Positions 22,442 through 40,268 of a stretch of 64,000 nt of DNA are shown piece by piece. The stretch is from an uncultured SAR116 cluster alpha proteobacterium (GTDB taxonomy: Bacteria > Pseudomonadota > Alphaproteobacteria > Puniceispirillales > Puniceispirillaceae): assembly GCA_902596655.1 (NCBI GenBank), contig CACJUX010000001.1, forward strand, positions 1-64,000, read 5' to 3'. Made by a program: the position numbers and the translations under genes. Numbering within the stretch: the stretch's first letter is position 1; each line of letters starts with the position of its first letter. Below the pieces are notes generated by a model. That model ran no database searches. It had not been told where the DNA came from and worked only from the letters and a program-made list of their open reading frames with translations.

Positions 22442-25400
22442 ATGTCCAAGGAATATACTTATATACTCGGAGCACCAAATTTTTTAACCTACGAAAGTAG
22501 TGCCTCTTTACTGCGAATACCAAAGGGAGGGGGCGATATTGATTACGTGTGTATCGGTGAAGATAGATTAACGAGAATAAAGCATACTTATAATTTTCCG
22601 TTGAGAGGTATTGACTATTGTTTAAATCACTTTGGGTTAGATGATGTTGAACAAGTAGACTATTTAGCAACGGATTATGCGCGTGTCCCTAGATGGACGA
22701 ATAGCGGTCCTGGTTACAGGAAACTTGAAAGTGACTATTTAAAACTGAAGTTTAAGTTTCCACGTGAAAAAATTTTGATTATGGATCATCACGATGCTCA
22801 CGCTGCATCTTGCTACTATCCCTCTGGCTTCGAAGAAGCGGGAGTTCTCATTGTAGATGGAATGGGATCTAATCTTAATACTCAAACTGGATATCATTTT
22901 GATAAAAACGAAATCACGTGGTCAGAGCGGGGTTATGACTGGGGTATTGGCCGATTATACTCCATGGTAACTGGAGCTTTACTCCCCTACGGACCAGAAA
23001 AAGGTTATGGGAAAGTGATGGGATTAGCAGCTTATGGACAAAACCTCCCTCCAAGCGGCTTAAATTTTCGAGGCATTATTGATGGAATGCGTTCAGATTA
23101 CAGTGAGTTTTTTAGCCGCTTTCCTATTTCGAGGCTGGTCGCGGATGATGTCCCTAGATGTCAAGATAGACAAAGGGTAATGGAAGCGCCCTTTCCTGCG
23201 ATAGCTCATGAGGTACAACAAGAGTGTGAGCGCGTGTTAATCGAATTTGCGAATTATATTCATAACAAAACTGGCACAACGAACCTCTGTATTGCTGGTG
23301 GGGTGGCCCTAAATGGTCGCGCAAACTACAAAATATTGAAAGAGACGCCAATCCAAGACATCTGGGTTCAGCCTGCTTGTTCTGACGTCGGACTGAGCTT
23401 TGGCCTAGCTTTATGGGCGGCGTATAATCTAATTGGAGAGAAAGAGGTTTTTTATAAAAATAGAATTTCAATGCCTCATGCCTATTGTGGCACGACATAT
23501 CCCAGTGTGGAAGTGGAAGCGACTTTAAACAAATACGGCATAGAAAATAGAACTGTTGTTCCTTACGAAATAGCTAAGTTAATCTCAGAAAAAAATGTGG
23601 TGGCGATTTTTGATGGTGCATGCGAATTTGGGCCACGAGCATTGGGGCATCGGTCGATTCTGGCGGACGCGCGAGATCCTCACATGAAAGACAAACTGAA
23701 TAGCTCTGTAAAATTTCGAGAAGAGTACAGGCCTTACGCACCGGTAATTCTAAGGGAAAGGTTATCAGAGTATTTTGACTTGGAATATGACAGTCCATTC
23801 ATGCTCATTGTGGCGGATGTCAAGAGAGACAAATATGACATCATTCCAGCCGTTAACCATGTGGATGGAACAGCAAGGGTACAAACTGTGACCGAGCAAG
23901 AAAATGGTACTTACTACAAAATTGTAAAGTGTTTTGATGAAATCACTGGAGTACCAGTATTGCTAAACACGTCATTCAATGTAAATCGGGAGCCAATAGT
24001 CGAAACACCTACGGATGCCTTGATATGTGCATTTGGTACTTCTATTGATTATTTGGTTATAGATGGAAGGATTATTGACTGTGGTAAATACAGAAATCCC
24101 GAAATTTGCGCAAAAATTACCAAAGATCGTGATGAAAGTAATGACTTAAAATATCAAGAAATATTAGAAAAATACTTGTACGGTTACAACGTATCGGAGC
24201 GAGACCATTATTTAAAAGAAGAGAGTGCTATTGCAGATTGGCATAGAAACTATAGTGCGAAATATGAACTGGATAAAAAAATCTCATTATGGAATGAAAA
24301 CCAAAATGAGCGTATTTTGATTGTGGGAACACGAGCACATACAAAATGCCTATATATGTACATCGGTGGTTTTCCCGAATTAAAGATAGAGGCTTTTGTG
24401 CCTTGGGACACACGACCCGGTGAAAAAGGTGATTTTGAGCACGTATACACCGAGTGGGAACTTGGAAATGTAAAATGGGACATGATCGACAGCGTGCTGA
24501 TATCATCCCATGAGTATCAGCGTGAAATTTATCAGTGGTTGAAAGACAGAGCACCTGATCACATAAAATTAAATAAACTTTATGATGATGCTTGTGACAA
24601 TTTACTTTTTACATTGCCAGGAAATTGGCCGGTGATAAATGAATACCAGACGCGTTTTCATAATTTAAAAATTAAATTAAAAAAACAAATTACAGCGTCA
24701 AACATTGATTTTGATTTTGAACCCTCCGCTATAAACATAAATGATCGCTACGCCGTTATAATAAACTATCATTATTTACGGGACGAAAATAATGATAACT
24801 TTGGGGTTTTAAATTTCACTTCACCAGGAAATTTTGAATCACAATTGCGGGCTTTAAACGAGAACTTCTCTTTTTGTAGATGTGAGGATCTGGTTGACGA
24901 AAAAATACCATTAGCTGAATCTAATATTGTGATTTGCTTTAATGATGGTCTTAAGGACATTGTCACGTCGGCAACAAAAATACTAAGAAGTTATGATGTG
25001 CCAGCTACTGTGTTCATCAATTCCAGCCCATATATAGACAATAGGGTGCTCCATGTGCACAAGGTGCAACTCCTCATGAAGAAGCTGGGAAGCAAAATTT
25101 TTGCCAAGCAGTTTTATGAACTTTTGCAGTCTCAATCGTTAAATATTAAGTCAGATAAATCAACCGACTACGCTGAGGGCTATCAGTTCTATCGTTATGA
25201 CAACGACACCATCAAAGATTTTAAGATGGATGTGAATCACAAAGTACCCTACATTTATGCAGAGTCTATCGTAGAGAAGATTTTCAAGCGGTCCTTTTTT
25301 GATATTGCTGAATCAGAAATCGTGAAAGTCTTATATCTCGGTAAGGATGATTTAAATACACTTCTTGACCAAGGTCATGAAATAGCAATTCACGGACATA

Positions 25401-25717
25401 GCAACCGAGTTTTGCCTCTTTTGTCTTACGATCAGCAAATAGATGAACTACAATCATCAGCGAAATTTCTTCGCTCCATAACAGGAAGGGATACTTACTC
25501 TGTTGCTTACCCGTTTGGATTATCGGACAATAATACGAAGCGTGCAATGAAACAACTGGGCATGAAAGCTGGTTTTGATTTAGGTCGGGAAATGCTCACT
25601 CCAGAACACATAAAAAGCAGATGGAACCTTCCTAGATTTGATGTAAATGATTGTTTTGATAAGCAATCCAATACGTTAAATTATAAAGTTTTTTCAAACC
25701 TATCAACTGGTGACTAA
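22442..25717 (+). CDS. Carbamoyltransferase (NodU/CmcH) fused to a Rossmann-like domain and a NodB-like deacetylase domain
   Basis: A 1091-residue, three-part protein. Residues 1-555 form a NodU/CmcH O-carbamoyltransferase: IMDHHDAHAASCYYPSGF (114-130), VDGMGSN, GKVMGLAAYG, IAGGVALNGRANYK and CEFGPRALGHRSILADAR (393-411). These enzymes move carbamoyl from carbamoyl phosphate to a sugar hydroxyl. Residues about 622-715 resemble the sugar-sensing Rossmann modules with ILIVGTRAHTKCLY and VLISSHEYQREIYQWL. Residues about 770-1075 match NodB polysaccharide deacetylases (INYHYLR, ICFNDGLKD at 832, VAYPFG at 1022, LPRFDVND). The usual TFDDG is CFNDG and the usual HxxxH reads HGHSNRVLPL, so metal ligands appear lost. 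It is closest in layout to the intact deacetylase at 43340. Confidence 0.88.
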   Translation: MSKEYTYILGAPNFLTYESSASLLRIPKGGGDIDYVCIGEDRLTRIKHTYNFPLRGIDYCLNHFGLDDVEQVDYLATDYARVPRWTNSGPGYRKLESDYLKLKFKFPREKILIMDHHDAHAASCYYPSGFEEAGVLIVDGMGSNLNTQTGYHFDKNEITWSERGYDWGIGRLYSMVTGALLPYGPEKGYGKVMGLAAYGQNLPPSGLNFRGIIDGMRSDYSEFFSRFPISRLVADDVPRCQDRQRVMEAPFPAIAHEVQQECERVLIEFANYIHNKTGTTNLCIAGGVALNGRANYKILKETPIQDIWVQPACSDVGLSFGLALWAAYNLIGEKEVFYKNRISMPHAYCGTTYPSVEVEATLNKYGIENRTVVPYEIAKLISEKNVVAIFDGACEFGPRALGHRSILADARDPHMKDKLNSSVKFREEYRPYAPVILRERLSEYFDLEYDSPFMLIVADVKRDKYDIIPAVNHVDGTARVQTVTEQENGTYYKIVKCFDEITGVPVLLNTSFNVNREPIVETPTDALICAFGTSIDYLVIDGRIIDCGKYRNPEICAKITKDRDESNDLKYQEILEKYLYGYNVSERDHYLKEESAIADWHRNYSAKYELDKKISLWNENQNERILIVGTRAHTKCLYMYIGGFPELKIEAFVPWDTRPGEKGDFEHVYTEWELGNVKWDMIDSVLISSHEYQREIYQWLKDRAPDHIKLNKLYDDACDNLLFTLPGNWPVINEYQTRFHNLKIKLKKQITASNIDFDFEPSAININDRYAVIINYHYLRDENNDNFGVLNFTSPGNFESQLRALNENFSFCRCEDLVDEKIPLAESNIVICFNDGLKDIVTSATKILRSYDVPATVFINSSPYIDNRVLHVHKVQLLMKKLGSKIFAKQFYELLQSQSLNIKSDKSTDYAEGYQFYRYDNDTIKDFKMDVNHKVPYIYAESIVEKIFKRSFFDIAESEIVKVLYLGKDDLNTLLDQGHEIAIHGHSNRVLPLLSYDQQIDELQSSAKFLRSITGRDTYSVAYPFGLSDNNTKRAMKQLGMKAGFDLGREMLTPEHIKSRWNLPRFDVNDCFDKQSNTLNYKVFSNLSTGD

Positions 25718-28773: not shown

Positions 28774-30063
28774 TTATAAGCCGGAATTTTTGATTTTTGA
28801 TTTGTTCGTTAGATGGATTTTTTCGAAAGCAATAATCAATAAAATAACAATCCAAGTTTCTTTGTAACGATAAAAAGTATTGAAAAAATTCGCAAAAACT
28901 ATAGCAAGCATGAAAATATAAAGTGCTTGGCCGAGATATATCTCCGAAAAACTTTTTACATTTTTTAAAAGTTTTCTGTGACGATTAATGAATGCAAAAA
29001 CACCTATTATCAAGAAAACAAACCCGAAAACTCCGGCCTCGGCCATAAAATTCAGATAGCTGTTATGGGCGTCAACATTACCATGATCATAGGCTATGTG
29101 GTTCAGTACTTTCTCACCAATCAAATCCAATGCCTGCACTGGGCCCACACCAAAAGGGTGTTCTAGTCCTATCTGAATCGCTGAAATACCCAGTCCGACT
29201 CTTTGAGACCCCCAGTAGTAGTAGTAATAATCACCATAGAAATCTTGCCACTCAAAAATTTGTGCCCACTTGATCGAAATTCGACTTACCAAGTTATCTG
29301 ATGAAATACTAAGGAGAAGAATTACGAGAAGAACCGTAAAAGAAACCAATACTTTAAGATCTAACTTGAAGAATCTCGATTGTTGACAAACAAGAACAAT
29401 ACCCAGACTAATCAGAACTAAAGTAACGTAGCCCGTTATTGAAATTGTTTTCATTAACGCAAAAACGATTGCAACATATGCTAAAAGGCGTATCAACCGA
29501 TACTTTGTATCTTTCTCTAGCAAGCGGAATAGACTAAAACCAGCCCCAATCGATAGCATATAAGCTATAGAATTTGGGCCTCCAACAAAATTTTGGTGTC
29601 TGACCCATCCCGTATCGTCGATCGTGTAAATTTCTCTGCTGCCGAACCCGATAATGTCACTTAAAATAAAGGTTAAAGCCATTAGGAATACACCAAATCC
29701 AAAATAATCCATCACACGTCTTATGTGGCTCATATCATTCAGTGCAGCGACCATTATGTACGTGAACAAAATCAAATTAACAAGGCTTAACACTTGCCTT
29801 GGAAAACGACCATCATACCATACGATGGCACTCGCTGAATAAATTCCAAGTAGTAATGCCATATAAACAAACGCTGGACTCAGTACGGGCAGTCGGTTGC
29901 GCATTAGAGTTTCAAGGAAGAAGAGTAGAAAAGCTATAGCACCAATAAAAAAACCAAAGGTACTAGAAGCACCCGTCTCAAAACCGAAGGAGACCAATTG
30001 ACCAGCGGGGATCAAAATTGTGTAGAGGTACAATAAAATTCTTTGTACGGATGCAAAGTTCAT
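28774..30063 (-). CDS. O-antigen polymerase/ligase family membrane protein (Wzy/WaaL-like)
   Basis: A 429-residue inner-membrane protein with about ten to twelve hydrophobic helices and the large periplasmic loop and motif of the Wzy_C family near the C-terminus: FGVGPVQALD, then DAHNSYLNFMAEAGVFGFVF, whose His-Asn-x-x-Leu and following Glu-x-Gly are family hallmarks. It would polymerise lipid-linked repeat units in the periplasm or ligate them to a carrier. With the Wzx-like flippase at 40279 it supports a Wzx/Wzy-dependent route. It is the last gene of the minus-strand block that also contains the phosphonate set, 66 bp after ppd. Confidence 0.87.
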   Translation of the reverse strand: MNFASVQRILLYLYTILIPAGQLVSFGFETGASSTFGFFIGAIAFLLFFLETLMRNRLPVLSPAFVYMALLLGIYSASAIVWYDGRFPRQVLSLVNLILFTYIMVAALNDMSHIRRVMDYFGFGVFLMALTFILSDIIGFGSREIYTIDDTGWVRHQNFVGGPNSIAYMLSIGAGFSLFRLLEKDTKYRLIRLLAYVAIVFALMKTISITGYVTLVLISLGIVLVCQQSRFFKLDLKVLVSFTVLLVILLLSISSDNLVSRISIKWAQIFEWQDFYGDYYYYYWGSQRVGLGISAIQIGLEHPFGVGPVQALDLIGEKVLNHIAYDHGNVDAHNSYLNFMAEAGVFGFVFLIIGVFAFINRHRKLLKNVKSFSEIYLGQALYIFMLAIVFANFFNTFYRYKETWIVILLIIAFEKIHLTNKSKIKNSGL

Positions 30064-30129: not shown

Positions 30130-31209
30130 TCAGAGGACTTTTATAGAGTTTTTTATTACACTCTCTATTGGCGGTCTACTAGCAATCTCATCATACGAAC
30201 ATTTGACGTGGAGAAACAAAGCCCCCTTTTTTTCGTCAAAGAACTTAAGAGCGGTGGCAAAGTCTGCAACTTCAGTCACTATATTCTCAAAACATTCAAA
30301 TCCAGAGCCCCGTGCAATACTGAGGTAGTCAACATGACCTTGTTGTGTGGCCTGACCACCAGTACTTTTGTTAGATTCATTATCAAAATTGATATAACAA
30401 AGGTTAATGGCTGTTGCCTCCCTTCCACAAGTTGTCATCCCGCCCATATGCATCACAAACTCTGCATCACCACCGCAAACTATAACGTTATTGACACCGC
30501 TCTGAGCTATTCCGGAGGCCATACTCAATACCCCTCCCATATTTCCTGCCATGTAGAAATTTTTCGTATTGTTCATAAAAGAGTACATTTCTCGACAGGT
30601 ATGGCCTGTTGTACCAATAAAAATAGTGCTTGAGTGTTTGTAGAGGTCGTCGAGTTGAACTAAATATTCGCTTCGCCTCGGGTATTTTTTCAGATTTATC
30701 TGAAATTTTTTATCGAGACGTACCTCACTGAACGTACCTTTATTTAAAATTAAAATCGTGTCTTCTGTTTGACACAAATTTATTTGCTCTATCGAGTCTA
30801 GGAGGTTTTGAGAGAGCCTTTGTGGATTGTATCCATAGGCTTGAATTAAGTTTGGCAACTCCGTAGCTAAATGGGCATGTTGGATTTCGCTATCACCGTG
30901 CTTGTAACCGCGCCAGCTTATTATTATTGGGAATCTTATACTGTAAGGCTTTAAGAGACTGGTGATGCAACTTCCCATATTGGTGAGACCTGAAGATTGG
31001 GCGATCACTATGGGTTTACTACCACCTAGTGCCAAACCAGCGGCGTACGAGCATGCTACTGCCTCATTTGCACATGGTATATATTGTATCTCTCCGTTTG
31101 AATTGATAGCTGCATTTATCAGTGAGCTTGCAAAACTGCATGGAACTGTACAAAAGTGCGTGTAGCCCCGTTTTACCAAACATGAGATGAACTCCATTGT
31201 GTCGATCAT
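30130..31209 (-). CDS. ppd: Phosphonopyruvate decarboxylase (TPP-dependent)
   Basis: About 359 residues. Decarboxylates phosphonopyruvate to phosphonoacetaldehyde, the step that makes the PEP mutase reaction run forward. Features of the Ppd/sulfopyruvate decarboxylase group: N-terminal pyrimidine-binding part with GYTHFCTVPCSFASSL, IPCANEAVACSYAAGLALGG (the catalytic Glu) and QSSGLTNMGSCITSLL; C-terminal TPP-binding part with AGNMGGVLSMASGIA, CGGDAEFVMHMGGMTTCG and NFDNESNKSTGGQAT. The ATG at 31209 is preferred (upstream AGAGCAGG); a TTG at 31230 abuts the preceding stop. It sits directly after the cytidylyltransferase/transaminase fusion and PEP mutase, which fixes phosphonopyruvate and not sulfopyruvate as substrate. 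Confidence 0.9.
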   Translation of the reverse strand: MIDTMEFISCLVKRGYTHFCTVPCSFASSLINAAINSNGEIQYIPCANEAVACSYAAGLALGGSKPIVIAQSSGLTNMGSCITSLLKPYSIRFPIIISWRGYKHGDSEIQHAHLATELPNLIQAYGYNPQRLSQNLLDSIEQINLCQTEDTILILNKGTFSEVRLDKKFQINLKKYPRRSEYLVQLDDLYKHSSTIFIGTTGHTCREMYSFMNNTKNFYMAGNMGGVLSMASGIAQSGVNNVIVCGGDAEFVMHMGGMTTCGREATAINLCYINFDNESNKSTGGQATQQGHVDYLSIARGSGFECFENIVTEVADFATALKFFDEKKGALFLHVKCSYDEIASRPPIESVIKNSIKVL

Positions 31210-31230
31210 TAAACAGACCTGCTCTTGCAA

Positions 31231-32538
31231 TTACAGGGTGTGTACACTTATTCGTTGATCCAAATAATTAATTTCTTGGTGTATTTCGCCAAAATGACAA
31301 ATGACAGATCCAGGTAAAATAGAACGAGGTGAATACAGGACAATATCATCGTCATTTTTCGATACCAAGCCATTCAAATAAGTACAGAGCAATGGTTGAC
31401 CTTCCTCTCTTTCAATGAAGGCTCCAAATTTATTCATTACTAGGTCTTTACTAGTTTTTACGCGTTTTCTTAGAACTGGGTGTATGTCTATGACGTTATA
31501 AAGCGAAGCGATCGCGTGGTAGGGTCCGGTGACTAGGGAATTTTTGTGCGTTTCGATGTTGAAATAAAAGCTATCACTTTTTTTCGTCTCTAAACCTTCT
31601 TTATGAGCAATAAAACAACCACCAGTCAAACCAAATAAACCTTTGCATGAACTAAATGCTGTGAGGTCAGCTAGATGGTGATTATTTTCCAAACCAATTG
31701 ATCCAGTGGCATCAACAAACAATTTAGCGCCCAAATCATAAGTTAAATTTTTAATTGCCTTCAAGTCACTCAAAAATGCTGTACTCGTCTCGGTGTAGGC
31801 GCACGCAACCCAGTCAAAATTTCCGCTTACACTGAACGCATCTTTATATTCAACAACAGTAACATGACAACACGATGGCAGTAATTTCTGTATCCTATCA
31901 CTATAATACCCTGTGTTAATCAGAAGCACTTTGCCCGATAAGAAGCTATGGGCCGCAAGTTCAATAGCAAAAGTTGCAGATCCTTGAGCTGCGATGACAT
32001 GATCTTGACCGCTAATTTTTTTTATCCAGTCTTTCACTATATTTGACACCAAAGTGAATTCATCGTCACCCCGACCGAAATATGGTTTAAGACCTTGAAG
32101 GTTTTCGTGCAATATGACTGCCGGGCCTGGTGTAAGCATCAGCTTTTTGTTATTGGTATTTGTGTAAGCTCTTATAGCTTCTGCTCTGATAGAGGAGCTA
32201 CTTATGTTCTTGGTCCTTGGCAGCACTATAACCTTTTCCGATGAGACAGAGTTATTGTTGTCTTCACCATGGACTAAAAAATCTATATTGTTTGACGCAA
32301 GGACCTCGTCCGTTATTAACCATGGTGTTGGGACAACTTCTACAACGTCTTGAATTGCAAGCAAAATTTCTCTTCTGGCGGCAAAATCAATTTCAGGTGT
32401 ATAGCCCTTTACCTTCAAGACTTCGTTATCAGTAGTCAATCCAATAACAACATCTCCATATTCTGCAGCTTTTTTAATTAACCTTATGTGACCATGGTGG
32501 ATCAACGTAGCTGACATGTCGAGCATTACCCTAGCCAA
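31231..32538 (-). CDS. Fusion: TagD-type cytidylyltransferase + 2-aminoethylphosphonate transaminase
   Basis: About 435 residues with two enzyme domains. Residues 1-125 are a glycerol-3-phosphate-cytidylyltransferase-like domain: HHGH at 14-17 (the HxGH motif), GLTTDNEV, and PRTKNISSSSIR at 107-118, equivalent to the RTxGISTT signature of TagD. Residues from about 135 are a class V aminotransferase of the PhnW type: LTPGPAVILHENL, AAQGSATFAIELAAH, FVDATGSIG and FSSCKGLFGLTGG with Lys about 299 as the PLP lysine. Predicted role: phosphonoacetaldehyde to 2-aminoethylphosphonate, then CMP-activation with CTP. The TTG start at 32538 follows AAAGGA at good spacing and lies 4 bp after the PEP mutase stop; Met5 is an alternative. 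Confidence 0.85.
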   Translation of the reverse strand: MARVMLDMSATLIHHGHIRLIKKAAEYGDVVIGLTTDNEVLKVKGYTPEIDFAARREILLAIQDVVEVVPTPWLITDEVLASNNIDFLVHGEDNNNSVSSEKVIVLPRTKNISSSSIRAEAIRAYTNTNNKKLMLTPGPAVILHENLQGLKPYFGRGDDEFTLVSNIVKDWIKKISGQDHVIAAQGSATFAIELAAHSFLSGKVLLINTGYYSDRIQKLLPSCCHVTVVEYKDAFSVSGNFDWVACAYTETSTAFLSDLKAIKNLTYDLGAKLFVDATGSIGLENNHHLADLTAFSSCKGLFGLTGGCFIAHKEGLETKKSDSFYFNIETHKNSLVTGPYHAIASLYNVIDIHPVLRKRVKTSKDLVMNKFGAFIEREEGQPLLCTYLNGLVSKNDDDIVLYSPRSILPGSVICHFGEIHQEINYLDQRISVHTL

Positions 32539-32542
32539 AACT

Positions 32543-33778
32543 CTAATCCTTTGAAGTGATTGCTGTGTAGGGGATTTTGGCTTGAGATACCATCTCCAAA
32601 AGACTCGCATCTGGGTTGGCTTTTTCCAGCAGAGACAATAATAAATCGGCCTGTAAATTTATTATCCCAGCAAATTGGTCATCTAAAAAAAGCAATCCGC
32701 CTGCATCAAGATTTTGGAACACAATGTTTTCTATGTCCGCATATGCAACAGTGACATGTTCTGTATGAATGTGCGGCAAGGCCGCCATCAATGAATGGGT
32801 CTCGCCAAGTGAAGAAGTAATCTCAACACGATTAGCTTTATCAAAACTACTAGCGTCAAGTAAACATTCTGCATCAACTACAAAAATCATAGAAAAAAAA
32901 TCATCTCGTCGATCAATGAAGCGTTTTGTTACCAGATCGTCATCAAGTAAAAAATTTCCATTCTTGTCAGGTTTTGCCCCTAAAACGACTAATGTCTTGT
33001 GGCCCTGGGGCTCATAGTCCCCAACTCTCTCAAGTATTGGTTGAAATTCACATGGCTCACTCAATAAGTCAGCTAAACTTTTCTGGCTGAATGACTTTCT
33101 TATAAAGGAAGAACAAATGTTGCCTAGAATGCTGAAATCTGCGAGTGAGTCAAAGTCACCTCGAACTACCTGGTCAAGATATTTTGTCGGAATAATACCT
33201 GTATGAAGCTCATCCTTTTTCAGTATTTCGAGAGACTCCTTTAATAGTGAAGTGTCTGAATTGCCACCCCAATGAATAACAACACCATCCGCGCCCGCCT
33301 CTGAGGAACGTCTTGCAATATCACATGTTACCGCAACGTCTTTAGAAGTAGCTAAATATTCATTCCTCGCGATTACCTCTAGTTCAGGCACTTCTTTTTT
33401 GACTTTATTGATTAAACGGCAAAACTCCTCTGGCGTGCTAAGGACCATAGTATCTGGTGTTAAGCTATTTACTTTTGGAAAACGTTTAGATTCCACCACT
33501 ATTGTATTACAACCTGCATAAAAAAGTTCTTTTGCAACCACGGCCGCTATGCTTGGCTCGTTAAAAAGCATATCGACATCTACAATAATTTTTTTCTGAC
33601 TTTGCAATCTTAAACGGCGAACAAAATCAACATAAACAGTCCACGGTAATGTGCAATTATCAGCATAGCCGCGTTGCCAGGACTGAGTTAAACTACTTAC
33701 CCAATAACCAGCGCAGTCCGGGTCTAATTCGAGAAACTCGGTTGCCCAAACTTCAGGGATTTCAGTGTAGTAGATCAT
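32543..33778 (-). CDS. Phosphoenolpyruvate phosphomutase with an extra C-terminal NTase-like domain
   Basis: About 411 residues. PEP mutase forms the C-P bond by rearranging phosphoenolpyruvate to phosphonopyruvate. The N-terminal isocitrate-lyase-like barrel has YWVSSLTQS (25-33), RGYADN with Asp40, IIVDVDM with Asp67 and Asp69, and VESKRFPKVNSL with Glu96, Lys102, Asn104; this matches the diagnostic EDKxFPKxNS except that Asp is Ser. VIARNEYLATS and SEAGADGVVIHWGG follow. Residues about 240-411 look like a worn nucleotidyltransferase: LVVLGAKPDKNG, GETHSLMAALPHI and VAYADIENIVF. The ATG at 33778 has a near-perfect GAGGTG site. It starts the phosphonate genes, 16 bp after the CDP-alcohol transferase. 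Confidence 0.88.
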   Translation of the reverse strand: MIYYTEIPEVWATEFLELDPDCAGYWVSSLTQSWQRGYADNCTLPWTVYVDFVRRLRLQSQKKIIVDVDMLFNEPSIAAVVAKELFYAGCNTIVVESKRFPKVNSLTPDTMVLSTPEEFCRLINKVKKEVPELEVIARNEYLATSKDVAVTCDIARRSSEAGADGVVIHWGGNSDTSLLKESLEILKKDELHTGIIPTKYLDQVVRGDFDSLADFSILGNICSSFIRKSFSQKSLADLLSEPCEFQPILERVGDYEPQGHKTLVVLGAKPDKNGNFLLDDDLVTKRFIDRRDDFFSMIFVVDAECLLDASSFDKANRVEITSSLGETHSLMAALPHIHTEHVTVAYADIENIVFQNLDAGGLLFLDDQFAGIINLQADLLLSLLEKANPDASLLEMVSQAKIPYTAITSKD

Positions 33779-33794
33779 GTGACACCTCAGTATT

Positions 33795-34583
33795 CTAATC
33801 GTATCGAATAGCACGCCTAGATAGAACAAAAATTTTCAAAAAGAGATCTAGGATATGCACATATAAACCTAAAAATAGAAAAATGGTTACTTTGTCTACT
33901 AGGATAAAAATAAAGAAAAATGGAATCTGAAAACCAACGAGAGAAGATAAATTTGTCCGCAAAAACCAGAGGAACGCCCGTATTTTGAGCCAATAAGTAG
34001 GCAGTGCCTCTCTATCACTAACATTCACCGATTTTCTAGAGCCTGTCTCGCCGTTGTTAACACTTAGCAAAAGGCCAAAGATATCTCGAAGTAGTAACGC
34101 AAGCAGAATACACATACCGATATTTAAATAATTCATTGAGGTGATTTTCATTATGACATCGTAAAAGTTTCCGGGGTTTCCGGATGTCGCCTCCAGAGAA
34201 GCTAAGACCGCTACTGACAGCCAAAAGCAAACACACGCAAAATAATAGCCCATGTCATCAAGCAAGGCTCCAAATGTACTAGATATGCGAAAATGGCGAG
34301 CAACAATTCCATCAACACAATCACCCAAAAGCCAAAGATGAAAACAAAAAGCACAAACCAACGAAAACCCAATACCATTTCCAAATGAAAGGAAAAATCC
34401 CAACAAAGCAAAAGCTATAGATATCAATGTGATAATGTTTGGGGGCACTCGAAAACAAATCATTAACTTGGCTATCACAAAAAATTGTTTCCTAGATACC
34501 CATCCCATCCAGAAATATTGGTCATCATGAATATGTTTCTGTTCGGGATAAGCATTAACAAAATCTTCTTTATTAAATTCCAT
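33795..34583 (-). CDS. CDP-alcohol phosphatidyltransferase family protein, variant catalytic motif
   Basis: A 262-residue membrane protein with about six helices and the CDP-alcohol phosphotransferase motif in GDCVDGIVARHF...FGALLDDMGYY. The expected D-x2-DG-x2-AR-x8-G-x3-D-x3-D is present except that the last Asp, the usual general base, is Tyr. Members transfer a phospho-alcohol from a CDP- or CMP-activated donor to a lipid or sugar hydroxyl. Its position next to PEP mutase and the CyT-transaminase fusion suggests transfer of 2-aminoethylphosphonate from CMP-AEP to a glycan or diacylglycerol-like acceptor. ATG 34583 chosen over the TTG at 34595. Confidence 0.82.
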   Translation of the reverse strand: MEFNKEDFVNAYPEQKHIHDDQYFWMGWVSRKQFFVIAKLMICFRVPPNIITLISIAFALLGFFLSFGNGIGFSLVCAFCFHLWLLGDCVDGIVARHFRISSTFGALLDDMGYYFACVCFWLSVAVLASLEATSGNPGNFYDVIMKITSMNYLNIGMCILLALLLRDIFGLLLSVNNGETGSRKSVNVSDREALPTYWLKIRAFLWFLRTNLSSLVGFQIPFFFIFILVDKVTIFLFLGLYVHILDLFLKIFVLSRRAIRYD

Positions 34584-34622: not shown

Positions 34623-35807
34623 CTATAAGTATATATTATCGCAAAGCCAGTCACATTGATTTTCAAAATTATGGCTCTTGTGAATTAAAGCGGACGCATT
34701 ACTTCCGAGTAAATGCATTCGATTTTTGTTTTCGAGCAACTCGCAAACAGCTGCGGAATATTGATGGGCATCGTAGCGATCAACTATTATAGCTGTCCGA
34801 TTATTTTTCCAAACTCTACAGTCGACCCACTCTTGTGACACTAATATTGGCACAGCATTAAAGGCCATGGCCTCCAAGCAAGCGCTGGGCATACCCTCAC
34901 GTCGCGACGGAAATGCAAAGACGTCGGCAACATGGTAAATCTCAAATACTTTTTCATGTTCAAGGTTCCCAGTAAAAAACACACGCTTAATTGAATTTGA
35001 TGTTAAGAAATTTTTCATATGAGAAATGAAAAGATCATTTTCAGGAAAATCTGGGAGATGCAAAGGTCCAACGATTATAAGAGAGGCATTATTACTTTGT
35101 TTTTCAATGAGGCGCCAGCTTTCAAGTAAGAAGTCAACGCCTTTACGCGAGCAAACAAACCCAGAAAAACAAACTATCGGTCCCGTCAGCGGAATATTAA
35201 ATCGGTTCTCCAAAGATTTCCTTACTTTCCGTTTATTCTTCTGTTTTATTTGACCAATAACGGATGGCAAAACTGCATTTGGGAAATAGTGCTGCTCAAT
35301 GCCCAAACTATTTGCGACATGGATGGAAGATTTTTCTATTTCATTTGACAAAGCTAAATAGGCGTCAGCTTTTTTGACTATAAATTTTCTTAATCGTGAC
35401 GAAGTAGCTGTCTGTAAATCGTCTTGCCCCATAAGGGACGAATGAAGTACCATTTTTTTGAAAAAAAGAAATCCTAATAAAATTACGACAAGAGTCCGCT
35501 TTTGGATTCCAATGAAATGAATATTTTTCCATTTTTTGAAATTTTTTAGAAAAAAAATAAATAATTTGCAGAGTGCAAATAAAAAAATAGACGGGTTGCC
35601 AGTAGGTAAAAATATTCTGGTAACTGTGCCAACAGGAGTGGTTGTCGGCGAGATAACTTTGTTATCTAAAATAAGCATCTGCACATCTACATTTTTGGCG
35701 CTAAGGCAATCTCGGTAAACTTTCGCCTTCTTCGCGGGGCCACCGTATTCTGGATAGTATTGACCCGCAACTATTAGCACCCCTTTTTTTGTTTGTGGTG
35801 TCGTCAT
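34623..35807 (-). CDS. Glycosyltransferase family 4 (GT-B)
   Basis: A 394-residue GT4 enzyme: GVLIVAGQYYPEYGGPAKKA at the N-terminus, a hydrophobic patch near residues 80-115, IVCFSGFVCSRKGVDFLLES, SLIIVGPLHLPD, VFFTGNLEHEKVFEIYHVAD and FAFPSRREGMPSACLEAMAF with the E-x7-E type motif. Donor and acceptor unknown. Its ATG overlaps the stop of the upstream gene (ATGA), so the two are translationally coupled. It is 39 bp before the CDP-alcohol transferase and is likely part of the same transcript. Confidence 0.88.
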   Translation of the reverse strand: MTTPQTKKGVLIVAGQYYPEYGGPAKKAKVYRDCLSAKNVDVQMLILDNKVISPTTTPVGTVTRIFLPTGNPSIFLFALCKLFIFFLKNFKKWKNIHFIGIQKRTLVVILLGFLFFKKMVLHSSLMGQDDLQTATSSRLRKFIVKKADAYLALSNEIEKSSIHVANSLGIEQHYFPNAVLPSVIGQIKQKNKRKVRKSLENRFNIPLTGPIVCFSGFVCSRKGVDFLLESWRLIEKQSNNASLIIVGPLHLPDFPENDLFISHMKNFLTSNSIKRVFFTGNLEHEKVFEIYHVADVFAFPSRREGMPSACLEAMAFNAVPILVSQEWVDCRVWKNNRTAIIVDRYDAHQYSAAVCELLENKNRMHLLGSNASALIHKSHNFENQCDWLCDNIYL

Positions 35808-37195
35808 GCGGTTTTTGACAAAAAAGCTACTATTTCGCTAGCTGTTCGTCGAAAAGCATTACCATCGACATCGCCACATTCAAATTTGACCGCTTTTCGT
35901 CTTCGGTTAGCATGAAGGTTTGGTTTTACAAAATAATCAACACACAAACTAACCAAGCTATCCATGTCTGGTGGCACTGGTAAATTACTCTCAGCCAATA
36001 GTTTCTGTTGATGTAAAAAACGTATAACCTCCTTACTGTTAATGCTTCTTTTTGAGAAGCAGGAATTAGGGTCATCAAAACCAACCAAAATAACCGGCGT
36101 TTCACTCAAGCATGCGTCTATGGTTAAGGTGGATAAAAAACTAATCACCACATCAGAGTGGTAAATTAATTCGGCTAGATTAGTAACATCTGATTTATCA
36201 ACACTCACTGGTAAAGTCTGGGATACAGTCTCCGGCACGTGAAAGTATAGTTGCGGGTATTTCGACTGTAGACGATTCAGTTTTTCAAAAGAGGGCCCTT
36301 CACTATATCCACTAATCACCTGGGGATGTGGTCTGACAACAAATTGAATATCACCAACTTCTTGTGACTGAAGTTTTTCCATAAATTCTTCTAAAAACCA
36401 CTCAAAATCAGGATAATAACTATCGGTAGAGCCGCCCAAAAACACTGTCTTCTTGCTTTCACAAAGGCCAAATTTATTTAACACGGATTTTCTGCCCTTG
36501 AAGGTTTTTTTCCCAGCATATATGTCGTGATAAGCGGATCCTGTTACCTTAATTTTTTCTTCCGAAATATTGTGATATTTTATCAACTCTTTTTTGTTTT
36601 CATCGTTCCATACCAAAAAAAGGTCAGGATGTTTTAACAGGCAGATGGTTTTAGAACTCGGATGATCCCAACTTTCAATGATAACAATTACTCGTTTTTT
36701 TAGCTTTTGGGCCGCACGGATTAACATCTGCGGCTCTTGGTGAATTGTACTTAAAACCAAAATAGCATCGAAGTTGTGTCTTTTAATTAGATCGACATAA
36801 TTTTTGTCAAAGAAAATAAGATAATCCAACAGAAGGAATAGCTTCTTTAGAATGGAATATTTCTTACACAACGTTTCAACCAGGCATACTAAATTATATC
36901 GCCACTTTGAATCTTTTTTTAATCTTGCCATACGGACCTCGTCAGACACTGTTTTAGCAGCGTAAAAGGAAACGTTACGGCGTAAAAAATCTGTCTTTGC
37001 GAAAGCCTTTCTATAGATTTCGTTTGATTTGAAAGCAGTAAATTTGCCTGCCATTTTTTCCTTGAAATAAGGTTCTTCAGCATTTGGCGAAATTACGCTA
37101 ACGTCGACGCTACTATTCCGTAACTCTTCCATCACACCACAATGCAGCATTTTTCGCATGTGCCAGCCATGGCTTAAACAAATCAGCAATTTCAT
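35804..37195 (-). CDS. GT-B type glycosyl/glycerophosphotransferase-like protein
   Basis: A 463-residue soluble protein whose C-terminal half resembles surface-carbohydrate GT-B enzymes and CDP-glycerol glycerophosphotransferases: VFLGGSTDSYYPDFEW, IQFVVRPHPQVISG, and HSDVVISFLSTLTIDACLSETPVILV. The N-terminal half starts MKLLICLSHGWHMRKML and contains VIVIIESWDHPSSK. The exact reaction cannot be assigned. The context (neuABC upstream, GT and phosphonate genes downstream) suggests addition of a nonulosonic acid or another repeat-unit sugar. Confidence 0.65.
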   Translation of the reverse strand: MKLLICLSHGWHMRKMLHCGVMEELRNSSVDVSVISPNAEEPYFKEKMAGKFTAFKSNEIYRKAFAKTDFLRRNVSFYAAKTVSDEVRMARLKKDSKWRYNLVCLVETLCKKYSILKKLFLLLDYLIFFDKNYVDLIKRHNFDAILVLSTIHQEPQMLIRAAQKLKKRVIVIIESWDHPSSKTICLLKHPDLFLVWNDENKKELIKYHNISEEKIKVTGSAYHDIYAGKKTFKGRKSVLNKFGLCESKKTVFLGGSTDSYYPDFEWFLEEFMEKLQSQEVGDIQFVVRPHPQVISGYSEGPSFEKLNRLQSKYPQLYFHVPETVSQTLPVSVDKSDVTNLAELIYHSDVVISFLSTLTIDACLSETPVILVGFDDPNSCFSKRSINSKEVIRFLHQQKLLAESNLPVPPDMDSLVSLCVDYFVKPNLHANRRRKAVKFECGDVDGNAFRRTASEIVAFLSKTA

Positions 37196-37245: not shown

Positions 37246-37968
37246 TCAGCTGCGAGTCAAATCTTCCGGAACTACTAATTTGTTATTTAATTGGTATTCC
37301 AAATAGCGTAAGTTCTCCATGGTATCTAAGTTTAGACTGCGCGATTCCGGCATTACGTATGGCATAGTAGCTGTTGAAAAAAAAGTATTATATTTGTAAA
37401 TGCTTTCGACCTTTGTGATATAAAAAGCTCCATTAAGCCTGTACAGTTTTTGGAGTTGTTGCCTTGGCACGTGTGAATTTTTATTCAAGTAGCTTTTTAG
37501 CCAACCGCCTTCAATTGTCTGGAGTTTTTCCGGATGTTCGCCTGTGTATTCACATACGCTGACCATTGACATGGCGCGTTGACTATTATTTGCGAAGGCT
37601 TCAATAAATTTTTTTAGATCTTTAGATGTCCTTAGTGGTGTTGAGACTTGCACAAGAATAACGTAGCCAGTTCTTAAATTCATTTCGTCGAGACAGTGCT
37701 TAATTACGTCAATGGAAGACGCATTGTCTGTGGCAAGTTCCTTAGGTCTGAGACTCTTCGATGAAACATCGAATTGTTTCGCCAACCGTTGCATCTCCTC
37801 GTCGTCAGTGGAAACCATAATCCTATCTATCAGAGGACATTTCTTACAAACCCTGATAGCTCTCTCCAACAGACTTATGCCATCAAGCTTATAAAGGTTT
37901 TTCTTTGGAATACCTTTTGATCCTGACCTAGCGGGAATGACTGCTACGACATTCTTATTATGTATCAT
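37246..37968 (-). CDS. neuA: CMP-nonulosonic acid synthetase (NeuA/LegF/PseF family), copy 1
   Basis: A 240-residue cytidylyltransferase that activates a sialic-type nine-carbon acid with CTP. Motifs: VVAVIPARSGSKGIPKKNL, DRIMVSTDDEEMQRLA, RPKELATDNASSIDVI, a VQVSTPLRTSKDL segment in place of the common LQPTSPLR, and RLNGAFYI. The last gene of neuC-neuB-neuA (47 bp after neuB). Whether the product is CMP-Neu5Ac, -legionaminic or -pseudaminic acid cannot be told from the sequence. Confidence 0.88.
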   Translation of the reverse strand: MIHNKNVVAVIPARSGSKGIPKKNLYKLDGISLLERAIRVCKKCPLIDRIMVSTDDEEMQRLAKQFDVSSKSLRPKELATDNASSIDVIKHCLDEMNLRTGYVILVQVSTPLRTSKDLKKFIEAFANNSQRAMSMVSVCEYTGEHPEKLQTIEGGWLKSYLNKNSHVPRQQLQKLYRLNGAFYITKVESIYKYNTFFSTATMPYVMPESRSLNLDTMENLRYLEYQLNNKLVVPEDLTRS

Positions 37969-38015
37969 GGTTGAACTTCATTTCAACAAAGCTTCTTGGC
38001 AACACTAAACTAACT

Positions 38016-39074
38016 CTATTTTTCAATGTCATTGTGCTGTAAAAATTGTCCGTTGTTGAGGTCAACTAGTGTCTTTTTACCAATAAGTGATTTGTATTCT
38101 CTGGCGGGGATGCCAGCGCAAGGTTTCTTACAGCTTAAATGTTCTAACGCTAGCAAAGTTCCCGCTGGTATAAATCGTGATGCTGTTAATGCCTGCCCAA
38201 AAAGGGTTTTTAAATCTGCGGCATTTGTAGCGAATAAGTTTTTTTGGACCGGGTTACATAACATCTCGCTAATCATTCGGACGCCCTCAGTTAAAAATTT
38301 GAGTTCGTCCAAAGTTAATGACGCGACACAATCTGGCCCGAACATTTCTTTACTGAAAGTAACGTGCACTTCTAACAATCTAGCGCCTAACGTAGTAGCG
38401 CTAAGACCAGGGAATATAAATGAAGAATGATCTGAAAGCCCAACGGGACAACCATACCTTTGTTTAAATTCTGATATCAAATTAAGACCAACAGAAGTGG
38501 GTGGGCAAGGGTAAGATGTTGTGCATTGCATTATCGCAAAACGATCCATCTTTGCTCTAATATGCGCAACAGTGAGGTCCAAATCTTCGAAACTGCTCAT
38601 CCCACTCGATAAAATAATGGGATTGCCTTTCGATAAAATGTTGTCAATCAACAGGTCGTTTGTAACTTCACCTGAGGCAATTTTCCACAAAGGCATTCCA
38701 ATGGCATCCAATAATTCAACAGCTTGCAGTGAGAATGGCGAACTAAGAAAAATTAATCCTAGGTCCTCAGCGTGAAGTTTTAAACCAATCCATTGCTCCT
38801 TAGTAAACTCCATTCGCCGCCAATAATCGGTTCTTGTTTTGTCCTGGTGACTAAATTTCGTCCGCCAGTCCTCTAGATCAGAACTCTCCGCTGCGGCTAT
38901 GTGAGTTTGAAACTTGATAGCATCAACCCCAGTCTTGGCAACTGCGTCTATGTAGGAATGAGCAATTCCAAGACTACCGTCGTGAGCCTGCCCAACCTCA
39001 GCAATTATGAAACAGTAGCCAGAATCATCAAAAATGTTATCGATTTTTTTTTTAAAAATTGGCTCGTATCCCAT
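38016..39074 (-). CDS. neuB: Nonulosonic (sialic-type) acid synthase with SAF domain, copy 1
   Basis: About 352 residues. Condenses PEP with ManNAc or a related 6-carbon sugar to a nine-carbon acid. The NeuB barrel is visible as CFIIAEVGQAHDGSLGIAH, DAIKFQTHIAAAES, WKIASGEVTNDLLI, ILSSGMSSFEDLDL, QCTTSYPCPP and VGLSDHSS; the C-terminal antifreeze-like SAF domain (about 290-350) has AGTLLALEHLSCKKPCAGIP. The ATG at 39074 follows AAGAGG. Lies 21 bp after neuC, forming one unit neuC-neuB-neuA. The unusual EVGQAHDG start (instead of E-x-G-x-N-H) is seen in Leg/Pse-like and divergent synthases. Confidence 0.88.
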   Translation of the reverse strand: MGYEPIFKKKIDNIFDDSGYCFIIAEVGQAHDGSLGIAHSYIDAVAKTGVDAIKFQTHIAAAESSDLEDWRTKFSHQDKTRTDYWRRMEFTKEQWIGLKLHAEDLGLIFLSSPFSLQAVELLDAIGMPLWKIASGEVTNDLLIDNILSKGNPIILSSGMSSFEDLDLTVAHIRAKMDRFAIMQCTTSYPCPPTSVGLNLISEFKQRYGCPVGLSDHSSFIFPGLSATTLGARLLEVHVTFSKEMFGPDCVASLTLDELKFLTEGVRMISEMLCNPVQKNLFATNAADLKTLFGQALTASRFIPAGTLLALEHLSCKKPCAGIPAREYKSLIGKKTLVDLNNGQFLQHNDIEK

Positions 39075-39095
39075 TAACAAACCTCTTGGCTTTTG

Positions 39096-40268
39096 CTACC
39101 CAAAATTTTCTTCTGGTACGTGCATTGATGGGAAACAGAGCTGTTTCTGAGAATATACATCAAGTTCTGTAATTTTTTTTGCGATTTTTACTGCAGCATC
39201 ACCTTTGCCGTACAAATTTGACGATTTGTAAGGCCCGTGTTTAATTTGTGCATCAACACAACGTACAATTTCAGTAACGTGTGTCTTGCAGTTAATTACG
39301 TTCCCAGCAGTTTCCCTGCCCTTTTGTCGATTACCAATTAAAACAACTGGGGTGCCCCAAAAAGAGGAGTCTCTGACAAAACTACTTGAATTCCCCAGTG
39401 CACAGGCTGCGTTACCCAAAAGATATTGGAAGTCTTCCGGCACGAAGTTTTTGACCACAGTGAGCCAATCAGTTAGTTCTGTAGACAGAAATCGCCGGAT
39501 AATTTTGCTTGTGCTATCTGATCCTGCGTCAATATTTGGCCACAACATAATCGCTGGTAACTTCAGCCTTTTGAGCGCCTTCAAAATTTCCTCCATCTCC
39601 AACTCTGCGGCTTTAATGTCTGTTGTTGTCGGGTGATGAATTACTAGCAGATAACTATCCGCAAAATTAAAATTTTTTGAAAAAATTGTGGGAAGACAAG
39701 ATTGATAGTTCTGCTTTTTTAGAGATAAAATCAGGTCTCCCACTGGGCACCCAAAGTTAAACACGGTGCTTGGTGCTTCACCCATATTAATAATATTTTT
39801 TCGAGCGGCATCAGTTGAAGGAAAATGGTAATGAGAAAATTTTGTTATAGCATGCCGAGTTGATTCATCAATGGAGCCGCTAATTTCACCGCCCTGAATG
39901 TGGACAACGCAAAAGTTTTGAAAAGCTGCCGCAAGTGCTGCCGCAAGCGCTTCAAATCTATCACCAATGATTAACACAACGTCAGGCTTCAGTTTATTCA
40001 GCGAGTTTGAAAATTCAATGACAGCCAATCCAAGAGATTTAGCCATAGTCAAGGGGATTGAACCCTCAACTTCAAAATATAATTCATCGGTGATTTTAAA
40101 ATTATCAGCTTGCGCTACTTCTGACGTCTGCTGAAATCGCCGAAGAACCATGCTGCCAGCGCAAATAATGTCAAGATTGACATTATCATTTTTTTTTAAC
40201 TCGAGAAGTATCGGTTTCATGCGCCCGTAATTTGCGCGATCAACTAATACAGACACGACATTGAGCAT
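39096..40268 (-). CDS. neuC: Hydrolysing UDP-GlcNAc-type 2-epimerase (NeuC/LegG)
   Basis: A 390-residue enzyme making free ManNAc (or a diacetamido analogue) from the UDP-sugar for the following synthase. NeuC features: VVSVLVDRANYGRMKPILLEL in place of GTRPE, VVLIIGDRFEALAAALAAA (DRxE), IQGGEISGSIDESTRHAITK, HHPTT, GNSSSFVRDSSFWGTPVVLIGNRQKGRE with its R-Q-x-G-R. ATG with an AGAGGTG site. Only 10 bp after the flippase gene stop. The GGE-x-x-G-x-x-D-E-x-x-R-H-x-I-T-K segment is typical of hydrolysing epimerases. Confidence 0.9.
   Translation of the reverse strand: MLNVVSVLVDRANYGRMKPILLELKKNDNVNLDIICAGSMVLRRFQQTSEVAQADNFKITDELYFEVEGSIPLTMAKSLGLAVIEFSNSLNKLKPDVVLIIGDRFEALAAALAAAFQNFCVVHIQGGEISGSIDESTRHAITKFSHYHFPSTDAARKNIINMGEAPSTVFNFGCPVGDLILSLKKQNYQSCLPTIFSKNFNFADSYLLVIHHPTTTDIKAAELEMEEILKALKRLKLPAIMLWPNIDAGSDSTSKIIRRFLSTELTDWLTVVKNFVPEDFQYLLGNAACALGNSSSFVRDSSFWGTPVVLIGNRQKGRETAGNVINCKTHVTEIVRCVDAQIKHGPYKSSNLYGKGDAAVKIAKKITELDVYSQKQLCFPSMHVPEENFG

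Follow-up and report, generated by a model that had tools for sequence, protein, structure and literature searches.

A putative HxGH-type cytidylyltransferase for 2-aminoethylphosphonate, fused to a transaminase in a SAR116 polysaccharide locus

Which enzyme would activate 2-aminoethylphosphonate (AEP) in a bacterium that appears to place it on its surface? This question is raised by a phosphonate operon in the surface-polysaccharide region of an uncultured SAR116 cluster alphaproteobacterium (genome G000, assembly GCA_902596655.1, 2.24 Mb, 73% complete). The stretch analysed, called the window below, comprises 64 kb of this assembly (contig CACJUX010000001.1, positions 1 to 64,000). The operon lies on the minus strand (34583-30130) and encodes, in the order of transcription, a CDP-alcohol phosphotransferase-like protein, a phosphoenolpyruvate (PEP) mutase (Ppm), an HxGH-type cytidylyltransferase (CyT) fused to an AEP transaminase (AEPT), and a phosphonopyruvate decarboxylase (Ppd). 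Judged from sequence, it probably makes AEP and activates it with cytidine triphosphate (CTP) to the cytidine monophosphate (CMP) derivative CMP-AEP for surface decoration, CyT being a distinct HxGH subfamily that would also serve bacteria importing AEP. The predicted starts (ATG 34583, ATG 33778, TTG 32538, ATG 31209) leave gaps of 16, 4 and 21 bp between the four adjacent genes, as the initial annotation had reported; for the fusion, TTG is the presumed start and ATG 32526 the alternative. The fusion of an HxGH cytidylyltransferase to AEPT in a phosphonate operon of a polysaccharide locus, also described there, was borne out. The operon consists of the following features:

33795-34583, minus strand: CDP-alcohol phosphotransferase-like membrane protein (PF01066, CDP-OH_P_transf, 33 bits, above the cut-off of 22), motif DGIVARHFRISSTFGALLDDMGY
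33098-33778, minus strand: catalytic domain of a divergent Ppm (PF13714), motif ESKRFPKVNS; its border with the C-terminal domain is approximate
32543-33097, minus strand: extra C-terminal domain of Ppm, about 180 residues (local hhalign match, alpha/beta order of the model)
32164-32538, minus strand: N-terminal HxGH-fold CyT domain of the fusion (PF01467; motifs HHGH and RTKNISSS; subfamily alignments)
31231-32163, minus strand: C-terminal class V aminotransferase domain of the fusion, a divergent AEPT (TIGR03301; pyridoxal phosphate (PLP) lysine in SSCKG)
30130-31209, minus strand: divergent Ppd (TIGR03297, TPP_enzyme_N, TPP_enzyme_C)

The CyT domain comprised about the first 125 residues of the fusion. 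It belonged to PF01467 (CTP_transf_like; 43.6 bits, cut-off 21) and carried the HxGH and RTxxISS-type motifs. The nearest solved structures were ethanolamine-phosphate cytidylyltransferase (9e-16), then 5x3d (9e-13), which we take to be the cytidylyltransferase domain (CyTase) of Fom1, and TagD (6e-9). The initial label "TagD-type" holds at the level of the superfamily; as a family name for CyT, TagD was rejected, since a structure of PCYT2 type is closer and the fusion missed the TagD equivalog cut-off (TIGR01518, 46.6 against 165.4 bits). PF12804, the MobA-fold, LicC-like family by which PntC is recognized, was not detected, PF01467 being the sole Pfam match of the fusion, and the association with ppm and AEPT genes that is likewise used to recognize PntC was present in the operon and its relatives. 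Nor was the layout that of Fom1: the window's Ppm had no N-terminal CyTase, and CyT sat on AEPT. Twelve homologous fusions aligned with that of the window over the full length (43-61% identity) and retained the HxGH, RTxxISS and PLP-lysine motifs, which argues against an accident of the open reading frame. The HxGH and RTxxISS-type motifs were kept in all 83 members of the CyT subfamily. A scan of viral contigs with the fusion found no relatives, and no plasmid record spanned most of it, the plasmid matches listed being to transaminases only, at about 25% identity.

The AEPT half had no Pfam match. It matched the PhnW-AepZ family TIGR03301 (E 2e-17, 63 bits) without reaching the equivalog cut-off of 360.8, and it matched solved AEP transaminases (PDB 7e7g, E 8e-11). 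In a profile alignment with canonical PhnW (E 1e-15) the PLP lysine and the Asp lined up. By these sequence comparisons the C-terminal half is a divergent AEP transaminase. AEPT structures and the MobA-fold PntC-AEPT (6pd1) were among the best PDB fold matches of an AlphaFold (AF2) model of the fusion (pLDDT 81); the comparison with PntC-AEPT drawn at the outset was apt in this respect and in the light of the literature (PMC6697681).

Used as query against 84,980 species genomes, the CyT domain retrieved 228 relatives; our locus counts rest on 80 of these plus loci from earlier searches. CyT was fused to a divergent AEPT in 13 loci of several phyla (the window, L041, L042, L060, L074, L077, L078, L083, L096, L098, L107, L109 and L112), with SAR86, Prochlorococcus, Thiotrichaceae, Flavobacteriaceae, Dehalococcoidia and Terasakiella pusilla among the carriers. 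In seven other loci, from Campylobacterota, Aquificota and Methylophilaceae, the partner was a canonical PhnW/AepZ; both of the two partners tested exceeded the TIGR03301 cut-off (406-425 against 360.8 bits). The two kinds of transaminase partner speak for two or more fusion events; the CyT tree was short and poorly resolved, and the events were not counted from it. A separate CyT within a Ppm cluster occurred in 26 loci, mostly adjoining an AEPT, and AEPT and CyT were unfused neighbours in L025 and L102, which belong to the same taxonomic order as the window. LicD genes adjoined some CyT genes. The initial annotation had proposed such a search for the fusion and its neighbours. The fusion turned up in 12 or more further genomes, with an unfused counterpart within the taxonomic order of the window. 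The initial interpretation was right in substance, with the novelty of the fold overstated and the breadth understated.

Where Ppm was missing, the neighbours of CyT pointed in the same direction. In 15 of the 36 CyT loci without Ppm, the gene directly downstream of CyT encoded the substrate-binding protein of an AEP ATP-binding cassette (ABC) transporter. This gene matched TIGR03261 (415 bits in L104, cut-off 392.75), a family that presumably corresponds to AepX; PhnT2 and PhnU2 stayed below cut-off. Specificity for AEP has been demonstrated for transporters of the AepXVW type (PMC8316502). Searched genome-wide, none of the 15 transporter-linked genomes had a Ppm above the cut-off, and all three positive controls did; a Ppm of high divergence could escape this search, the window's own falling below the cut-off used. 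PhnW/AepZ was also not found in 8 of these 15 genomes, and some Ppm-less loci had a neighbouring LicD gene. On a simple reading, AEP would be imported in these bacteria and then activated with CTP. We regard CyT as a putative AEP cytidylyltransferase because it is fused to or adjoins AEP transaminases of two lineages and adjoins AEP importers; activation of AEP by the HxGH domain, as first suggested, is the most likely function given its fusion and operon context.

Further genes were observed next to CyT. A methyltransferase gene directly followed it in L042 (11331-12044) and L086 (10402-11088), identified by Pfam, and similar genes held this position in L043 and L053, hinting at N-methyl-AEP in some lineages. 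In SAR11 phosphonate clusters, an adenylylsulfate (APS) kinase-like gene stood directly after CyT (L084, 10380-10901; a similar start in L113 and L105). In L028 (4984-6438, genome G041), CyT formed the C-terminal part of a fusion with a CDP-alcohol phosphotransferase, a Kennedy-like protein for two steps.

Reading activities, substrate and acceptor from genes, domains, motifs, fusions and neighbourhoods, we propose the following route. Ppm would convert PEP to phosphonopyruvate, which Ppd would decarboxylate to phosphonoacetaldehyde. This product would be transaminated to AEP by the C-terminal half of the fusion, and the N-terminal HxGH half would transfer CMP from CTP onto the AEP. A transferase, for which the CDP-alcohol phosphotransferase-like protein is a candidate, would finally attach the AEP phosphonate of CMP-AEP to a glycan or lipid belonging to the locus's surface polysaccharide. 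The CyT subfamily would thus replace the MobA-fold PntC for AEP, a non-homologous replacement, and Ppm-less bacteria would use it on imported AEP.

Pfam and NCBIfam backed each gene assignment of the operon at the family level. Ppd scored 192 bits against TIGR03297 (equivalog cut-off 312.5 not reached), the next-best families being sulfopyruvate decarboxylase subunits with 85 and 67 bits; TPP_enzyme_N (43.7 bits, cut-off 26.8) and TPP_enzyme_C (42.1 bits, cut-off 21.9) were both recognized. Ppm passed PF13714 (PEP_mutase; 58 bits, cut-off 31.5), which places it in the superfamily, and scored 79 bits against TIGR02320 (equivalog cut-off 319.55). In the tree it formed one clade with the Ppm of L041, L042 and L060, on the side of the Ppm-MobA fusions. 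FPKVNSL was kept and ESK replaced EDK in all four, and by sequence the window's Ppm type is this rare four-member clade; no further member was found in a sample of Gammaproteobacteria. Surveys filtering on EDKxxxxxNS would miss Ppm of the ESK type. Foldseek with the low-confidence model of the window's Ppm returned PEP mutases, mostly barrels of the PEP mutase superfamily, and nothing for its tail among the matches listed.

What this tail represents is less certain. As a known Pfam domain it was rejected, with no relevant match even at E up to 10. A local hhalign match to the MobA domains of Ppm fusions had E 6e-4 over 44 columns, with decoys at 0.045 or worse; the global profile alignment with the MobA domain failed. 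The alpha/beta order predicted in the low-confidence model was read as PntC-like, and the CTP-binding signature was absent. The tail is probably a decayed MobA/PntC-like nucleotidyltransferase domain, a tentative assignment since only the local match survived the decoys.

A further comparison concerned the CyTase domains fused to Ppm. Strict HxGH and ISS[ST] motifs were found in 3 of 36 such domains in clusters with a separate CyT and in 4 of 4 where a separate CyT was absent, this control set being small and related rows not independent. All 83 separate CyTs had both relaxed motifs. The damaged motifs fit the idea that the separate CyT has taken over the activity, as far as sequences can tell. 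The size of the control set weighs against our reading, and so do several other observations. With relaxed motifs, 17 of the 36 Ppm-fused domains were intact despite the separate CyT, and genome G619 had a decayed CyTase domain without a detectable separate CyT. Some CyT loci showed neither Ppm nor transporter, partly because contigs end. All four enzymes of the window are divergent, since each scored far under its NCBIfam equivalog cut-off. The Ppm clade stood on a very long branch, and the window's member had ESKRFPKVNS in place of the EDKxxxxxNS motif. In the phosphotransferase, the DGx2ARx8Gx3Dx3D motif was incomplete, Tyr replacing the fourth Asp, which leaves the transfer step unsure. 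Four genomes of the same genus were searched and gave no match to the fusion; the operon is therefore accessory.

Could these signs of divergence mean that the operon is decaying and no longer makes a phosphonate? The long branch, the ESK motif and decayed C-terminal domain of Ppm and the Asp to Tyr exchange would all fit such a pseudo-pathway. We nevertheless consider it quite improbable: all reading frames were intact, as were the CyT and AEPT motifs, and the same Ppm type with an identical motif occurred in three other genomes, its catalytic regions strongly conserved.

The substrate of CyT also has to be weighed. A phosphoethanolamine or glycerol-3-phosphate cytidylyltransferase, with the transaminase fusion reflecting general membrane-lipid or teichoic-type chemistry, would account for ethanolamine-phosphate cytidylyltransferase being the closest solved structure and for the fusion to a CDP-alcohol phosphotransferase in L028, where no Ppm was found in the locus. 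It would leave unexplained why CyT repeatedly sits next to AEP importers and is joined to, or a neighbour of, two lineages of AEP transaminase, and the TagD cut-off was missed; this substrate is very unlikely in our view. Activation of a modified phosphonate, for instance N-methylated or hydroxylated AEP, instead of AEP itself appears unlikely: the methyltransferase genes directly after CyT in other loci speak for it, but none adjoins the window fusion, and the transporter-linked CyTs adjoin importers of AEP. Activation of AEP itself is thus the reading that we retain.

The acceptor is suggested by the neighbourhood. As the initial annotation had noted, the operon lies between a polymerase and glycosyltransferase/neuABC genes, a setting confirmed by Pfam and NCBIfam matches, and the surface-polysaccharide region around it has a low G+C content:

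28774-30063, minus strand: Wzy/O-antigen ligase-like membrane protein, downstream of the operon (PF04932, 37 bits)
34623-37195, minus strand: two glycosyltransferase-like genes, upstream of the operon (PF00534; NF046086 domain match below cut-off)
37246-40268, minus strand: neuA, neuB and neuC-type genes for CMP-nonulosonic acid, upstream (TIGR03584/03569/03568 family matches)

In L041, whose Ppm is the closest to that of the window, neuC, neuA and neuB directly follow Ppd; the coupling of AEP with nonulosonic-acid polysaccharide therefore recurs. As to the phosphotransferase-like genes of other loci, the fourth motif Asp was replaced near L086 (11163-12032, Ala), L090 (9041-9892, Ala), L080 (7866-8627, Ser) and L060 (4366-5121, His) and intact near L098 and L107. 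A CDP-glycerol glycerophosphotransferase-like protein (PF04464; L043, 11101-12492) near a Methylophilus phosphonate cluster is another possible AEP transferase. Elsewhere in the window (22442-25717, plus strand), a 1091-residue open reading frame combines a polysaccharide deacetylase domain with the N and C domains of a carbamoyltransferase.

In conclusion, the wider proposal is favoured on balance, with less confidence than the reading of the operon itself. The widespread HxGH family would be a second, non-homologous class of AEP cytidylyltransferase, fused to AEPT at least twice, serving AEP producers (including SAR11, SAR86, Prochlorococcus and SAR116 relatives) as well as importers with AepXVW/PhnSTU2-like transporters that decorate their own surfaces, an anabolic phosphonate salvage. 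As far as we found, the MobA-fold enzyme is the only one demonstrated to produce CMP-AEP in bacteria. If the proposal is true, there is a second fold for this product and the nucleotidyl activation of AEP has more than one origin; CyT would serve as a marker of phosphonate decoration on the surfaces of abundant marine bacteria, and some bacteria would import AEP as building material rather than food. In open-access full texts, "CMP-AEP" was found only in PMC6697681, two marine phosphonate surveys did not mention the cytidylyltransferase terms looked for, and no description of this CyT subfamily was found; one may exist elsewhere.

The HxGH fold itself has precedents in phosphonate activation, and neither its novelty, as first assumed, nor a claim to the first such enzyme stands: 23.6% of Ppm enzymes carry a fused PF01467 domain according to Rice et al. 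2019 (PMC6697681), Fom1 acts on hydroxyethylphosphonate (HEP) and PhpF on phosphonoformate (cited in PMC6697681), and AEP can serve as an artificial substrate of the HxGH enzyme PCYT2 of mammals (PMC8776951). Among known systems, the PntC-AEPT of Treponema denticola (Tde1415, PDB 6PD1/6PD2) is the most instructive. PntC has the MobA fold and forms CMP-AEP, and the PntC-AEPT fusion was crystallised and its structure solved (Rice et al. 2019, PMC6697681). Like the window fusion, it combines an N-terminal cytidylyltransferase with a C-terminal AEPT in a ppm cluster, and the reaction predicted for the window fusion is the same; the nucleotidyltransferases are not homologous, however, being of the PF12804/MobA fold in Treponema and of the PF01467/HxGH fold here. 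Fom1-type CyTase-Ppm fusions (HEP in fosfomycin) and PhpF use the HxGH fold on phosphonates, as we propose for CyT, but their known substrates are HEP and phosphonoformate, not AEP, and the Fom1-type CyTase is fused to Ppm, not AEPT, and stands apart in the CyT tree on a long branch of its own. TagD shares superfamily and domain size with CyT; it is the weaker match compared with PCYT2, CyT misses its equivalog cut-off, and the genomic context differs. PCYT2 of the Kennedy pathway, the nearest solved relative, has the same HxGH fold as CyT and differs from the window fusion in being eukaryotic, in having phosphoethanolamine as natural substrate and in carrying no transaminase.

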